Origin: Cryobacterium sp. Y82
Lineage (GTDB): Bacteria > Actinomycetota > Actinomycetes > Actinomycetales > Microbacteriaceae
Assembly: GCF_002929495.1 (NCBI RefSeq)
Contig: NZ_PJJJ01000035.1
Coordinates: 270 to 64,269 of the forward strand
Reading direction: 5' to 3'
Length of the DNA stretch: 64,000 nt
Shown: positions 34,940-41,064 of the stretch, one piece after another
How the letters are laid out: each line of letters opens with the position of its first letter
Numbering within the stretch: the first letter of the stretch is position 1
Notes under the pieces: generated by a model
What the model saw: only the letters and a program-made list of their open reading frames with translations
What the model was told of the DNA's origin: nothing
Database searches by the model: none
Made by a program: the position numbers and the translations under genes

Positions 34940-35092
34940 TGATCCTAGGACCCGTTCTGGTCCGGGGCATTCCGAACTCACTTCGGCATGGGCATCCCGG
35001 GACTTGACATGGGTCCAAGTTCTGCCCAAAAACGCTTCTGGCTCCCTTGAGGTTTTCAGAAGCAGGTACGACTCTGCATGAGAGGTGTTCGA

Positions 35093-36382
35093 ATGGCAAC
35101 CACCGTCAAGACTGAGGTGACCGATGAGTCTGTCGCGACTCCGGTAGTATCGCCGGCCAAGAAAGCCGTCACTAAGGCCGCCGCAGCGAAGGCCGCTGCC
35201 GCCGAAGCTGCCGCGACGAAGAAGTCTGCAGCGGCTGACCTGGCTACCGAAAAGCCGGCCCCCAAGAAGCGCGCGACGAAGGCGAAGGTCGTCAAGAAAG
35301 ACGACGAAGCCGACGTCGTCGGCGGTTCAGAAGCCGATGACGACGAGTTAGATGAGGACAGCACTAAGCGTTCGGCGTCGACCGAGCCGCTCCCCAGCGG
35401 GGCCCTCGTGCTCTCGCTCGTTGACGACGACGACGAGGTTCCGGTCTACTCCAGCGCCATCACCGGCGCCACGGCTGACCCCGTCAAGGACTACCTCAAG
35501 CAGATCGGTAAAGTCGCCCTGCTGAACGCCGCCGAAGAGGTTGAGCTGGCGATGCGCATCGAAGCCGGCCTGTTCGCTGAAGACAAGTTGTCGGAGATGA
35601 CCGACGTTGAGAAGAAGAACACGCTGGGCCGCGAGCTGCAGTGGGTCGCCAAAGACGGCGCCAGGGCCAAGAGCCATCTCCTCGGCGCCAACCTGCGCCT
35701 CGTCGTGTCACTCGCCAAGCGGTATACCGGTCGCGGCATGCAATTTCTCGACCTGATCCAAGAAGGCAACCTTGGCCTTATTCGTGCCGTCGAGAAGTTC
35801 GACTACACCAAGGGCTTCAAGTTCAGTACGTACGCGACCTGGTGGATTCGGCAGGCCATCACCCGCGCCATGGCCGACCAGGCCCGTACGATTCGAATCC
35901 CCGTGCACATGGTCGAGGTCATCAACAAGCTCGCCCGCGTTCAGCGCCAGATGCTGCAGGACCTCGGTCGCGAGCCAACTCCGGAAGAACTTAGTCGCGA
36001 ACTCGATATGACGCCTGAAAAGGTCGTCGAAGTGCAGAAGTACGGACGCGAACCGATCTCCCTTCACACCCCGCTCGGCGAAGACGGCGACAGCGAATTC
36101 GGTGACCTCATCGAAGATACCGAAGCCGTCGTTCCCGCCGATGCCGTGGGCTTCACGATGCTGCAGAAGCAGCTCGAGAGCCTACTTGACTCACTCTCCG
36201 AGCGCGAAGCTGGGGTGATCCGTATGCGTTTCGGCCTCGGTGACGGAATGCCGAAGACTCTCGACCAGATCGGTGACACCTTCGGTGTGACGCGCGAGCG
36301 CATTCGCCAGATTGAGTCTAAAACGATGGCGAAGCTTCGTCACCCGTCCCGGTCGCAGTCCCTACGCGACTACCTCGAGTAA
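35093..36382 (+). CDS. sigA: Principal RNA polymerase sigma factor (sigma-70)
   Basis: A 429-residue primary sigma factor. The first about 100 residues are low-complexity, rich in Lys, Ala and Glu, as in actinobacterial HrdB/SigA. Region 1.2 begins at [11 protein letters not shown]; region 2 holds [20 protein letters not shown] and the -10 recognition helix [16 protein letters not shown]; region 4 holds [21 protein letters not shown] at 35093 is preferred to 35078 because GAGAGG lies 7 nt upstream. The MurT-like gene starts shortly after its stop. Confidence 0.96.
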
Positions 36383-36416: not shown

Positions 36417-37703
36417 GTGCGCTTCGTGAGTGCCCTCCGGTTCGCCCCCGCGATTCTGGTCGGTCGAATCGTTCGAGTGCTGGCACGATGGCGCAAACCG
36501 GGCGGCGGCTCTGCCATCCCCGGAGTCGTCGTCAACCGCATCGCCCCGGGCTTTCTGGCCGCGACGCTGAACGGTTTTCCGCTCGGTCTCGTGATCGTGA
36601 CCGGGTCAAGCGGCAAATCAACGACGACCAAGATGCTCGTCGCTATTCTTCGCGCCCACGGCCTCTCCGTGTTCACCAACCAGTCGACAGCCAACATCAG
36701 CCAGGGTCTGACCAGCGCCCTTCTGGAACAGGTCAGTCTCGCTGGCACGATCGCCGACGATGTTGCCGTGCTTGAAATGGATGAAGGACACGGCGCGTTT
36801 ATCGCCAGGTCCCTGACTCCGCGAGTCGTTGCCCTGACCAACGTCATGGTCGACCAGATCGATCGGTTCCACGATTCCGAAATGGTCGCTGCCCTTCTGG
36901 AGAAAATCGCCGCTCGGGCGACGGAGTCCGTCGTGCTCAATGCCGATGACCGGTACCTGGCCGACCTAGGCTCTGCCCTCGAACCAGGCATTGCGGTGTC
37001 CCGCTACGGTGTGACGGCCGAGGTTCTCGCTGAGTATCCTCGTGGACTCGGTTATGCCGACACCGCATCGACTCGCCTGCCGGCCGGAAGCGGGCTACAG
37101 CTCACTCGGGTGGTCGGCCGAGACGCCGACGTGCAGTTTGCCACGGGTATTCACAGCATCCGCTTACCTGCCCGCGGGATCCACTATGCCGTCGACGCGC
37201 TGACCGCCTTGAGCACGGCTAGCGTGACCCTCGGCGAACGCTTCTCTCCGGAAATGGCCTGTGCGGCGTTGTCGGCTATGCCGGCCGTGTTCGGCCGCGG
37301 CGAAATGGTGACCGTCGGTGGCAAAACCATCGAGTTTGTTCTGGTGCAAAACCCGTCGAGCTTTCAGCTCAATGTCGACAGTCTCGTATCGGGCACAGAG
37401 CAAATTCTGGTGATTATCGGCTCGGACGTTCGCGACCCGTCGTATTTCTGGCCGGTGGACACGTCCGGGCTCGGCCACGTGCTTATGGCTTCCGGACTCA
37501 AGGCGCACGAGATCGCCCTGCAGCTGGCCTATGACGACGTTGCCGTTGACCGCATTGAACCGGATGTACCGACTGCCCTCGACGCGTTTCTGGCGCTGCC
37601 CGATCCCACATCCGGGGTGAAAACCATTATCTTTTCGGCCGACGGAATGCGGCGCACGCGCGCGCACCTCGGCCTCGTCTCCAACTCTGAGGACCCGGTA
37701 TGA
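36417..37703 (+). CDS. MurT-like Mur ligase family protein (divergent)
   Basis: About 428 residues; GTG at 36417 is chosen, with GTG at 36426 equally possible. It has the MurT layout: short N-terminal helix, Mur ligase middle domain with P-loop GSSGKSTTT (residues 63-71; MurT usually has GTNGKTTT), DEGHGAFIARSLTPRVVALTN and a C-terminal DUF1727-like domain with QNPSSFQ. Only one Cys exists in the whole chain, so the CxxC pairs of the MurT zinc ribbon are absent. Classical MurT activates the D-Glu alpha-carboxyl of lipid II for amidation with GatD. It overlaps the GatD-like gene by 4 bp. Confidence 0.85.
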   Translation: MRFVSALRFAPAILVGRIVRVLARWRKPGGGSAIPGVVVNRIAPGFLAATLNGFPLGLVIVTGSSGKSTTTKMLVAILRAHGLSVFTNQSTANISQGLTSALLEQVSLAGTIADDVAVLEMDEGHGAFIARSLTPRVVALTNVMVDQIDRFHDSEMVAALLEKIAARATESVVLNADDRYLADLGSALEPGIAVSRYGVTAEVLAEYPRGLGYADTASTRLPAGSGLQLTRVVGRDADVQFATGIHSIRLPARGIHYAVDALTALSTASVTLGERFSPEMACAALSAMPAVFGRGEMVTVGGKTIEFVLVQNPSSFQLNVDSLVSGTEQILVIIGSDVRDPSYFWPVDTSGLGHVLMASGLKAHEIALQLAYDDVAVDRIEPDVPTALDAFLALPDPTSGVKTIIFSADGMRRTRAHLGLVSNSEDPV

Positions 37704-38461
37704 CCGCCACTTCGCCTGACCGGCCCTTCACGGTCGTTTCGCTGCTGCCGCGCCTGCTCAATACGAATGGCGATGCCGGTAACGCCAGAGTGCTCGCGCA
37801 GCGCATTCGGTGGAGCGGCCACGACGCGCTGGTGGTCGAGGTGCATTCTCGCGCTGACCTGCCCGAACACGTGGACGCGGTGTCAATCGGTTCAGGTACG
37901 GACGCTGACCTCCTACCGGCCAGGGACGCACTGCGGACACTGGTCGAAGAACTGCGCGTCTGGTCCAACTCCGGTGTGCCCATTCTGGCCGTCGGAACTG
38001 GCTGGGAATTGCTGAGCTGGGGCATCGAGCTCGCCGATGGTTCTGTGCTGGAGGGTCTCGGGCTCGTGGCCGGCCACGCCGTACCGCGTGCTGCACGCGC
38101 AACCGATGACATCATCGTCGCGTCGAGGTACGGGCGGTTGATCGGGTTCGAGAACCATGCCCGCGACTATGTCGGCGCCGACGCCAGTCCGCTCGGGCGG
38201 GTGATCTACGGCATCGGTAACTCGGATACCCGGGCGAGCGGACCGCAGATTGAGGGGCTGACCATGGGCGAGGTGTTCTGTACCCACCTGCACGGGCCGG
38301 TGCTCGCGCGCAACCCGGCCCTGGCCGATCACCTGTTACAGGCAACTTTCACTCGATCCGGACTCGACTATGTACGCGGAGCACGGTCAATGTCCGTCGA
38401 TGAAACCGCGCGGGCGGCACGCAATCAAGTGGCCGTGCGGCTCGGACATTCAGCCGAATAG
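37700..38461 (+). CDS. GatD-like glutamine amidotransferase homologue lacking the nucleophile Cys
   Basis: A 253-residue CobB/CobQ-type class I amidotransferase. The fold is well kept: LLPRLLNTNGDAGNARVLAQR, AVSIGSGTDAD, GFENHARDYVG and the His region FCTHLHGPVLARNPALADHL. At the nucleophile elbow, where GatD has AVCGGYQLLG or AVCAG, this protein has AVGTGWELLS: Gly99 (codon GGA at 37994-37996) replaces Cys. Glutamine hydrolysis by the normal route should be impossible. It is translationally coupled to the MurT-like gene, so the two probably still form a complex. A strong terminator follows at 38501. Confidence 0.87.
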   Translation: MTATSPDRPFTVVSLLPRLLNTNGDAGNARVLAQRIRWSGHDALVVEVHSRADLPEHVDAVSIGSGTDADLLPARDALRTLVEELRVWSNSGVPILAVGTGWELLSWGIELADGSVLEGLGLVAGHAVPRAARATDDIIVASRYGRLIGFENHARDYVGADASPLGRVIYGIGNSDTRASGPQIEGLTMGEVFCTHLHGPVLARNPALADHLLQATFTRSGLDYVRGARSMSVDETARAARNQVAVRLGHSAE

Positions 38462-38565: not shown

Positions 38566-38802
38566 CTAGGAACGCTGATCTTCGAGCAGCCGGCTCGATT
38601 CGTCGTGCCAGCTTTCAGCGATGGCCGCGAGCTTCTCCTGATGCTTCCGGCCGTGGTGCGCGCAGAACAACAGTTCGCTGTTCTTCACGACGACACGAAT
38701 GTAAGCCTGGGCACCGCAAGCGTCGCAGCGGTCGGCTGCGGTGAGCTGATGGGGGGTACCCTGGTTGGCTACGGCACCATTATCGGTGGCGATCTGGGAC
38801 AT
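38566..38802 (-). CDS. Small zinc-binding protein (DUF7455-like)
   Basis: A 78-residue protein with LTAADRCDACGAQAYIRVVV, then LLFCAHHGRKHQ and a helical C-terminus. The C-x2-C and C-x1-HH ligands make a small treble-clef or zinc-ribbon-like site. This is the DUF7455 type, common next to the sigA/parE region in actinobacteria; function unknown. The ATG at 38802 is chosen over one at 38853 because a near-perfect GGAGGAGG lies just upstream. Confidence 0.85.
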   Translation of the reverse strand: MSQIATDNGAVANQGTPHQLTAADRCDACGAQAYIRVVVKNSELLFCAHHGRKHQEKLAAIAESWHDESSRLLEDQRS

Positions 38803-38971
38803 TTTCTCCTCCTCCAGATTGAATGCATGAACCCTGTTAATCAATGTAAACACGCCGAAGGAACTATGACGAGATGATTGGCCGGTATTTCGCTCACCGC
38901 GTAGACGTGTTGTGGTCAGTGGCGAGTCGCGACCAGCCGGTTCCGCGCGAAAACTTGCTAGTCGGTGCCGG

Positions 38972-38985
38972 TATTCTTAGATGTT
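38972..38985 (+). promoter_or_regulatory. -10 box for parE
   Basis: TATTCT (38972-38977), 8 nt, then GTG at 38986. No Shine-Dalgarno site is present. Confidence 0.45.
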
Positions 38986-41064
38986 GTGAACTCTGATTAC
39001 TCCGCGCGCCACCTGTCCGTCCTTGAGGGACTCGAGGCGGTGCGCAAACGCCCCGGCATGTACATCGGTTCCACCGACTCGCGCGGGTTGATGCACTGCC
39101 TGTGGGAGATCATCGACAACTCCGTCGATGAAGCCCTGGGCGGACACGGTGCCAGCATCAACATCGAGCTGCACCCAGACCACAGCGTCGAAGTACGCGA
39201 CACCGCCCGGGGAATCCCGGTCGATATCGAGCCCAAGACCGGACTGACCGGCGTTGAAGTCGTGTTTACGAAACTGCACGCCGGAGGAAAGTTCGGCAGC
39301 GGATCGTACGCGGCGTCCGGTGGTCTGCACGGAGTGGGAGCATCCGTCGTCAATGCTCTCTCCGAACGTCTGGATGTCGAAGTCGACCGCGACGGCAAGA
39401 CCTGGGCCATGTCGTTTCACCGGGGCGAACCGGGCCTGTTTGCCGACGCGGAGCAAAAGAGCCCCGATGCCCCGTTCACTCCGTTTGAGAACCAGAGCGA
39501 GCTGCGGGTGATCGGAAAGGTCAAGCGCGGCGTCACGGGAACCCGCATCCGCTATTGGGCCGACCGTCAGATCTTCACCAAGGGCGCCACGTTCCAGACC
39601 GACGAGGTACTGGGTCGCGCCCGTCAGACCGCATTCCTCGTGCCCGGCCTCGCGATCGAGGTTGCCGACCGGCGCACCGATGTGCCCGTGATCAGCCTGT
39701 TCCAGTTCGACGGTGGCATCTCCGAATTCGTCGAGCACCTCGCTACGGATGCCCCAATCACCGACACCTGGCGACTGACCGGCAGCGGTACCTTCAGCGA
39801 AACCGTGCCAGTGCTCACCGACAAAGGTGCCATGGTGCCCACCGAACTCGTTCGCGACTGCCAGGTGGATATCGCCCTGCGCTGGGGGACCGGCTACGAC
39901 ACGATCGTGCAAAGTTTCGTCAACATTATTGCCACGCCTAAGGGTGGAACCCACCAGGCCGGCTTCGATGCCGGTCTGCTTAAATTTCTTCGCGGTCAGG
40001 TCGAACTGAACGCCCGACGACTGAAGGTCGGCAGCGACAAGCTCGACAAGGACGACGTGATGGCCGGCCTCACCGCCGTACTCACGGTGCGTTTGCCTGA
40101 ACCGCAGTTCGAGGGGCAGACGAAGGAAGTGCTCGGTACGCCAGCGGTTCGGGCAATCGTCGCCAACGTGGTCGCCAAGACCATGGCTGAGCGCTATGCC
40201 TCGCCGAAGCGCGACGACAAGACCCAGTCAGCGTTGCTCCTCGACAAGATCGTCGCCGAGATGAAGTCGCGCATCTCCGCCAGGGCACACAAAGAGACCC
40301 AGCGGCGCAAGAACGCCCTCGAGAGTTCTTCCCTGCCGGCAAAGCTGGTGGACTGCCGCAGCAACGACGTATCGACGAGTGAGCTCTTTATCGTTGAAGG
40401 GGACTCAGCCCTCGGCACCGCCAAGCTGGCTCGCGACAGCGAGCATCAGGCGCTTTTGCCGATTCGGGGCAAGATCCTGAACGTGCAGAAAGCGTCGGTT
40501 GCCGACATGCTCTCCAACACGGAGTGTGCCTCGATCATTCAGGTAATCGGCGCCGGTTCCGGGCGCAGCTTCGACCTATCGGCTGCGCGCTACGGCAAGG
40601 TCATTATCATGAGCGACGCCGACGTCGACGGCGCCCATATTCGTACCCTGCTTCTCACGCTGTTTTTCCGCTATATGCGTCCGATGATCACCGAGGGCCG
40701 CGTGTTTGCCGCCGTACCGCCGTTACACCGAGTCGTCGTGATGAACCCGGGAAGCAAGCCCAACGAAACCATCTACACCTACTCGGAGATCGAACTGCAC
40801 GGGGTCCTCAGCGCGCTCGAGAAGAAGAACCAGCGTTATCAAGATCCAATCCAGCGCTACAAGGGCCTTGGGGAAATGGATGCCGACCAGCTCGCCACCA
40901 CGACCATGGAACGCGCCCACCGCACGCTGCGGCGGGTGCGCGTCGCCGATGCCGAGTCCGCCGGCAAAGTGTTCGAGCTACTGATGGGCAACGACGTTGC
41001 CCCGCGTAAAGAGTTCATTATCGACAGTTCCGACAAACTCTCACGGGACCGCATCGACGTCTAA
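38986..41064 (+). CDS. parE: Type IIA topoisomerase subunit B (ParE-like)
   Basis: A 692-residue GHKL ATPase/TOPRIM subunit. The ATP site begins WEIIDNSVDEAL and continues with GGLHGVGASVVNAL; the TOPRIM domain has EGDSALGTAK and PIRGKILNVQKA, and DADVDGAHI holds the metal-binding acids. With the A subunit on the facing strand it should be topoisomerase IV or a second gyrase, separating linked daughter chromosomes; I cannot tell decatenase from gyrase by eye. GTG at 38986 gives the NSDYSARHLSVLEGLEAVRKRPG start; a GTG at 38965 is the alternative. Confidence 0.93.
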   Translation: MNSDYSARHLSVLEGLEAVRKRPGMYIGSTDSRGLMHCLWEIIDNSVDEALGGHGASINIELHPDHSVEVRDTARGIPVDIEPKTGLTGVEVVFTKLHAGGKFGSGSYAASGGLHGVGASVVNALSERLDVEVDRDGKTWAMSFHRGEPGLFADAEQKSPDAPFTPFENQSELRVIGKVKRGVTGTRIRYWADRQIFTKGATFQTDEVLGRARQTAFLVPGLAIEVADRRTDVPVISLFQFDGGISEFVEHLATDAPITDTWRLTGSGTFSETVPVLTDKGAMVPTELVRDCQVDIALRWGTGYDTIVQSFVNIIATPKGGTHQAGFDAGLLKFLRGQVELNARRLKVGSDKLDKDDVMAGLTAVLTVRLPEPQFEGQTKEVLGTPAVRAIVANVVAKTMAERYASPKRDDKTQSALLLDKIVAEMKSRISARAHKETQRRKNALESSSLPAKLVDCRSNDVSTSELFIVEGDSALGTAKLARDSEHQALLPIRGKILNVQKASVADMLSNTECASIIQVIGAGSGRSFDLSAARYGKVIIMSDADVDGAHIRTLLLTLFFRYMRPMITEGRVFAAVPPLHRVVVMNPGSKPNETIYTYSEIELHGVLSALEKKNQRYQDPIQRYKGLGEMDADQLATTTMERAHRTLRRVRVADAESAGKVFELLMGNDVAPRKEFIIDSSDKLSRDRIDV

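Follow-up and report, generated by a model that had tools for sequence, protein, structure and literature searches.

In the lipid II isoglutaminyl synthase of Staphylococcus aureus, Streptococcus pneumoniae, and Streptococcus pyogenes, a Mur ligase-like subunit, MurT, is paired with a subunit of glutaminase fold, GatD, and the two are encoded by a two-gene operon. In a laboratory mutant of this amidase, S. aureus GatD C94G (codon GGA), the use of glutamine is lost and MurT amidates lipid II with free NH3 at pH 8.5, with GatD still required, according to the accessible text of PMC3266927. A member of the MurT family that has no active glutaminase partner, and no GatD homologue whatever, is described from pseudomurein archaea in the available parts of PMC11915815.

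Amino-acid-adding Mur ligases (MurC, MurE, pseudomurein ligase E, and folylpolyglutamate synthase) also have no GatD partner, unlike the pair studied here. The wall ligases among them use soluble precursors. CofE, the coenzyme F420-0:L-glutamate ligase, couples an amino acid to a carboxylate. Group B peptidoglycan, which serves in classifying the Microbacteriaceae, has a cross-link that starts from stem position 2, and Schleifer and Kandler are said to have given the bridge amino acid as the amine on its alpha-carboxyl.

The MurT'-GatD' pair of the window

The window analyzed here, a stretch of 64,000 nucleotides from Cryobacterium sp. Y82 (contig NZ_PJJJ01000035.1), contains the MurT and GatD folds as a gene pair. 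The gene for the class I Mur ligase-like subunit, designated MurT' (36417..37703, + strand), overlaps by 4 bp the gene for GatD' (37700..38461, +), a class I glutaminase fold without its nucleophile. Both proteins miss the NCBIfam equivalog cut-offs (84.8 versus 800 bits for MurT'; 101.1 versus 450 and 76.3 versus 400 bits for GatD'). The nearest pairs from named organisms (L278 and L233), both Cryobacterium, match at 93 and 90 percent in MurT and at 90 and 85 percent in GatD, and dN/dS of the pair relative to two congeners is 0.09-0.11.

The ATP site resembles that of the synthase. The P-loop Lys, the Mg-binding Ser/Thr, and the middle-domain Glu of ATP-dependent Mur-type ligases are present as Lys67, Ser68, and Glu120; the P-loop reads GSSGKSTTT (36603..36629, +; canonical GTNGKTTT), where Ser68 stands at the position of Thr60, the Mg-binding residue in S. 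aureus. Lys67 and Glu120 are invariant in 70 rows and Ser68 is nearly so; Asp340, the equivalent of Asp349 of the MurT/GatD triad, is likewise invariant in the 70 rows. The triad His (His198) is retained in GatD', as is the equivalent of Arg128 in the pair.

In other respects the pair differs from the synthase. The site of the catalytic Cys (S. aureus Cys94) is occupied by Gly99, encoded by GGA (37994..37996, +), which is the same change and codon as in C94G, and the oxyanion Gly is missing; whereas C94G was made in the laboratory, the window pair belongs to a natural old clade with further changes. The adenine-pocket motif of MurT' is GIHYAVDA (37176..37199, +) rather than GxYNxxNA, with Tyr257 and Asp260 instead of the Asn pair. 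Asp260 is at the position of S. aureus Asn267, as located by residue counting along the sequence, and Asn267 forms part of the adenine pocket in the accessible text of PMC6113224. The C-terminal loop, IGSDVRDPSYFW (37416..37451, +), retains Asp340 and is shortened as compared with the canonical NDxxADGRD; IGSDVRD replaces the latter, and the DNAAD substrate-loop motif, as described in the same partial source, is missing. MurT' also contains the motif VQNPSS and has a single Cys and no Cys4 zinc ribbon. The first-pass annotation, made from this sequence, had reported Gly at the nucleophile site of GatD' and one Cys in MurT', and both are confirmed; a standard MurT/GatD pair was looked for elsewhere in the window genome, and none was found. 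Its argument from the zinc ribbon proved weak and was dropped because most Cys-type MurTs seen also lack the ribbon, which is not strict in Actinobacteria.

Loss of the glutaminase Cys and the sigA-parE slot

The GatD' sequence matched 109 of 150 Microbacteriaceae genomes, and 110 GatD loci from the family, including that of the window, were fetched. The nucleophile Cys is absent from 94 of these 110 loci (Gly 66, Ala 17, Ser 4, Asn 3, His 2, and Thr 2, with Cys in 16) versus 3 of 73 loci in eleven related families, with the reservation that Cys forms may be under-sampled because the query is itself Cys-less, so that a MurT profile search gives the fairer count. Loss of the Cys was thus sought outside Microbacteriaceae and is rare there: it is retained in 70 of the 73 loci (eleven family labels), the exceptions being two Asp and one Arg. 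Cys-less pairs of the H, G, D, and R types (L111-L113, L115, L178, L179, L185, L204, L205) stand outside the class I/II counts, and L001 and L032-L035 (own genome) and the repeats L116, L117, and L126 were excluded; L202 yielded no GatD. Cys-less MurT/GatD pairs in two other families have Asp (L178, L179, L360, L361) or Arg (L185, L362) at the nucleophile position, and their MurT has CxxC motifs.

The oxyanion Gly (GatD position 65) is retained in 4 of 90 class I/II rows as compared with all 17 Cys rows, S. aureus GatD included. Arg133 is kept in 84 of the 90 and His198 in 62; His198 has been lost from 26 of 57 class II GatDs and 2 of 33 of class I. At the Microbacteriaceae loci the MurT motifs covary with the GatD Cys. 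Where the Cys is present (16 loci), MurT has a [GA]TNGKT loop and a long C-terminal loop, usually with ADGxD; at the class I/II loci it has GS[SAN]GK[ST] (rarely GTAGKS or GSNGKG) and a shortened C-terminal loop. Of 101 class I/II MurT rows, 98 have Asp at the Asn267 equivalent. A MurT tree was built from 88 rows: every Cys row of Microbacteriaceae, every odd row, and a random sample each of class I, of class II, and of the Cys rows from outside. In it, a branch with support of 100/100 separates the Cys-less MurT' of classes I and II from all other rows, and MurT/GatD of these classes were found only within Microbacteriaceae. This single clade and the low dN/dS bear out the earlier claim, made from the gene overlap, that the pair is not decaying. 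The tree also places the H- and G-type lineages together, but this is a long-branch join and is not trusted.

Two side observations concern Cys-less pairs. The change from GxYNxxNA to GxHYAVDA in class I/II MurT means that the nucleotide may not be ATP; since the adenine-pocket Asn pair is altered, ATP is no longer certain for MurT', and GTP is conceivable. A reduced Microbacteriaceae genome of 0.93 Mb (G015) keeps a Cys-less pair with a Ser nucleophile beside sigA (L104), and retention in so strongly reduced a genome points to an important function.

The pair in the window is bordered on the left by the gene for the principal sigma factor ("sigA"; 35078..36382, +), which has Sigma70 domains and scores 755 bits against the NCBIfam RNA polymerase sigma factor (cut-off 582). 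To the right lie a small DUF7455 gene (38566..38853, −; PF24254, 1.6e-24, and synteny), the usual right neighbor, and the slot border formed by a type II topoisomerase subunit B of gyrB/parE type ("parE"; 38965..41064, +). The interval between the sigma factor and the DUF7455-topoisomerase B border is the usual place of the Cys-less pair: sigA adjoins 88 of the 94 Cys-less Microbacteriaceae loci and none of the 16 Cys loci, and the nearly invariant SigA tail was therefore used as a probe for the slot. About 1 kb separates sigA from murT' in two Naasia genomes and one of Amnibacterium (L209, L217, L244).

Among 80 sigA loci from named organisms, 37 hold a class I pair, 27 class II, 3 the H-type, and 12 a CofE-like gene, and 1 is cut by the sequence end. 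None holds two kinds of module, and no Cys occurs among the 61 class I/II GatDs read at these loci. Slots free of the pair contain a CofE-like ligase, usually with an ATP-grasp gene, an H-type pair, or nothing. In the 12 CofE-like slots the F420_ligase-family frame has ~235 aa; an ATPgrasp_ST-type gene accompanies it in 10 of them, and 3 contain an alanine-racemase-like gene. Such a racemase-like gene is also near the pair at 13 of the 27 class II loci, in genera that include Leifsonia, Agreia, and Labedella, and at none of the 37 class I loci; none was seen in the D-Orn genus Frondihabitans, so that a strict match of racemase to D-Orn wall was not seen at the sigA loci examined. The alanine-racemase-like genes in or beside the slot at L222, L226, L237, L263, L269, L283, L273, L282, and L227 are candidates for the bridge D-amino acid.

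In 20 further Microbacteriaceae genomes the slot is empty in 15, holds other genes in 2 and an H-type pair in 2, and is uninformative in 1; the empty slots include those of all 10 Cys-only genomes read. The H-type pairs in the slot are also Cys-less and have zinc-ribbon motifs. The G-type Cys-less pair stands behind a CofE-like gene and occurs in two genomes, in one of which sigA was seen. In two genomes of one genus, a divergent MurT and a GatD without the Cys come directly after a CofE-like gene (L365:3104-5902 and L366:3313-6111), which puts both types of cassette next to each other; sigA is adjacent in the genome of L366.

The class I/II pair and the CofE-like gene exclude each other. In the survey of the 150 genomes, which used the MurT profile search, the pair is assigned to 94, in 90 of them from its motifs and in G038, G081, G090, and G144 by score alone or partly; the CofE-like gene is present in 21 (E < 1e-100), with no overlap. 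The others comprise 14 genomes whose only pair is of Cys type and lies elsewhere, 9 with the H-type (5 read; G032, G111, G114, and G131 assigned by MurT score alone), 2 with the G-type, and 10 without any module, although in G099, counted among these 10, a contig end truncates a pair. One pair-bearing genome (G147) has a weaker CofE-like match (2e-35) that is located elsewhere than in the slot, and two (G054 and G066) have both a Cys-less and a Cys-type pair. The hypergeometric value for zero overlap is 6e-11, computed from genome lists transcribed by hand and with kinship ignored, and for that reason exchanges within genera are the better argument. Eight genera (g7, g9, g13, g58, g77, g79, g84, and g85) have both states among their species; g85 is split 5:12 with no overlap, and the sole g79 genome without the pair has the CofE-like gene. 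Of 34 fetched loci with the CofE-like gene, 31 have sigA beside it.

CofE-like ligases and AsnB-CofE fusions

The CofE-like protein of the slot is a relative of Pfam F420_ligase (E 2e-11) but lies far below the CofE cut-off, at 28 of 180 bits; a sequence search for solved structures of this group gave none at E 0.001. Two draws of genomes from the order, of 396 and 392, were used. Among the 392, strong matches (E < 1e-100) are confined to Microbacteriaceae. Other families contribute weaker ones (1e-37 to 1e-58) from 39 genomes, and in 37 of these the match lies in an open frame of 800-1200 aa. Eight of nine such long proteins read outside Microbacteriaceae start with MCGI, and three of these eight, run against Pfam, have GATase_6/7 and Asn_synthase domains ahead of the CofE-like tail, which is recognized by a custom profile and not by Pfam. 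These AsnB-CofE fusions are the closest relatives of the slot protein seen in the order. The ninth protein, L356, has a degraded amidotransferase domain; with no MCGI start and no Asn_synthase match (L356:2046-4460), it is perhaps another case of glutaminase loss, outside Microbacteriaceae.

Only one of the 39 fusion genomes (G474) has a MurT/GatD match, and its GatD has Asp for Cys. The hypergeometric value for this near-exclusion, 8e-9, was computed for zero overlap although one overlap was seen, and it likewise ignores kinship and rests on lists transcribed by hand. AsnB-type amidotransferases with a C-terminal CofE-like domain were noted at L352:3266-6022, L353, L354, L355, L357, L358, L359, and L363, in relatives within the order that are free of MurT/GatD except for the Cys-less pair in G474 of L359. 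The fusions are a candidate amidation system for D-Glu or another wall carboxyl; LtsA/AsnB proteins of their type amidate the diaminopimelate of peptidoglycan, according to the accessible text of PMC7920481 and PMC8554201. Since the pair is Cys-less and the CofE-like gene has no glutaminase domain, two unrelated carboxyl ligases that are glutaminase-associated elsewhere occur, as read from their sequences, without a glutaminase in Microbacteriaceae, in one slot and mutually exclusive.

A candidate ligase for the group B cross-bridge

From the homology, the loss of the glutaminase site, the single clade, the selection, the slot, and the mutual exclusion that were observed, we infer the substrate, the amine donor, the place in the pathway, and the role of GatD'. 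MurT'-GatD' is probably a Mur-type amino-acid ligase for the D-Glu alpha-carboxyl of group B peptidoglycan, derived from the MurT/GatD amidotransferase. MurT' would phosphorylate the D-Glu alpha-carboxyl in a peptidoglycan precursor, and the activated carboxyl would be coupled to a free amino acid through the amine of the latter, which would supply the first residue, or the only one, of the group B bridge; for a Cryobacterium-like organism such as that of the window the likeliest amino acid would be diaminobutyrate. GatD' would no longer make ammonia and would be retained as an obligate structural partner, whose former glutamine pocket perhaps holds the amino acid to be added. The CofE-like ligase would perform the same step in related species, where the ATP-grasp enzyme may add a second residue. 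The first-pass annotation had proposed such a ligase with GatD as scaffold, and this is still the best hypothesis, short of proof. It gains support from the clade-defining loss of both nucleophile and oxyanion Gly, from the same-slot exchange with a CofE-like ligase that lacks the glutaminase domain of its relatives, from the racemase-like and ATP-grasp neighbors in part of the species, and from the published C94G data. By analogy with C94G, which keeps NH3-dependent ligation and needs GatD, the natural Gly would predict an active MurT' that uses an amine from solution and needs GatD'.

The C94G result equally permits plain use of NH3, and the pair might still make D-isoglutamine from free NH3 rather than glutamine. 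In group B walls, however, the alpha-carboxyl carries the bridge. The NH3 use by S. aureus MurT with GatD C94G was at pH 8.5, and neither ammonia nor NH4Cl is a substrate of that system at neutral pH, as far as the accessible text of PMC3266927 goes; by the same partial source, S. aureus MurT/GatD took no donor except glutamine and, at pH 8.5, ammonia, which counts against the ligase reading. A change of nitrogen donor alone would hardly explain the loss of glutaminases from unrelated ligases in one family and one slot, nor are the changes confined to GatD: the DNAAD loop, the adenine pocket, and the P-loop have changed as well. We therefore consider amidation with free ammonia quite unlikely. 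Supply of ammonia to MurT' by another amidotransferase subunit, with GatD' merely docking, is very improbable. Three other GATase_3-like matches exist in the window genome, but the one that was read looks like PdxT, with PdxS as its neighbor, and GatD' itself has the fold of the docked subunit.

That the pair modifies some other carboxyl (of a polymer, a peptide residue, or a small molecule), and stands next to sigA by an accident of synteny, is unlikely. The altered adenine pocket and C-terminal loop, which leave room for a different nucleotide or substrate, would suit this reading, as would the frequent loss of His198 in class II and the fact that the pair is not universal in Microbacteriaceae. 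Against it, the MurT' lineage falls inside the lipid II enzyme family, outside relatives of its swap partner, the CofE-like ligase, carry a fused glutamine amidotransferase in genomes missing MurT/GatD, and racemase-like genes are neighbors in part of the species. A decaying relic without function, to which the absence of the catalytic Cys might point, can be given almost no credence in view of the dN/dS, the 4-bp overlap, the single old clade, present in about 94 of the 150 genomes, and the ATP-site Lys and Glu that are invariant in 70 rows, unless the pair has a non-catalytic role.

The proposed role as a bridge ligase can be set beside the wall types, at the level of the genus. Cryobacterium has a wall of type B2gamma with DAB (PMC7033078, Table 3, the source being available in part). 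Where the accessible descriptions give a type, the pair-bearing genera are B2 or B10 (eleven genera read in all, CofE-bearing ones included): B2gamma in Clavibacter, Agromyces aureus, Subtercola, Agreia, and Herbiconiux, B2beta in Frigoribacterium and Frondihabitans, and B10 in Glaciihabitans. Of the CofE-bearing genera, Lacisediminihabitans is B1alpha and Salinibacterium is B with Lys and Orn. Some genera are mixed, Salinibacterium having three genomes with the pair and four with CofE, and one Frigoribacterium and one Cryobacterium having CofE. The split between pair and CofE with respect to wall type, resting on eleven genera, some of them mixed, and on partial descriptions, is suggestive. 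The pair as the universal ligase of group B is rejected, since part of the Microbacteriaceae has no pair, and service to all group B members is not supported, the slot being empty in 15 of 20 further genomes. Other solutions thus exist, and if the empty-slot genomes also have group B walls, there must be another ligase.

It is possible, and put forward more tentatively than the ligase reading, that the slot is an exchangeable cassette for the group B cross-bridge ligase. Two unrelated glutamine-dependent systems for D-Glu amidation, MurT-GatD by point loss in GatD and AsnB-CofE, its stand-in in many relatives outside Microbacteriaceae, by domain loss, would each have become an amino-acid ligase, and the cassette would set the bridge: one D-diamino acid with MurT'-GatD' (B2) and two residues with the CofE-like ligase and ATP-grasp (B1). 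In some species the D-residue would come from a racemase encoded in the slot.

A search of the open-access literature found no report of the enzyme that places the bridge residue on D-Glu, and MurT'-GatD' and the CofE-like gene are concrete candidates for it. The AsnB-CofE fusions are predicted to be an unrecognized carboxyl-amidation system in Actinobacteria without MurT/GatD. The pair would also illustrate an evolutionary route from an amidase to a peptide ligase, in which ammonia production stops and another amine is admitted. The sequence comparisons suggest that the pair attaches the cross-linking amino acid of the Microbacteriaceae wall, and wall type might then be readable from the gene content of the sigA-parE slot.
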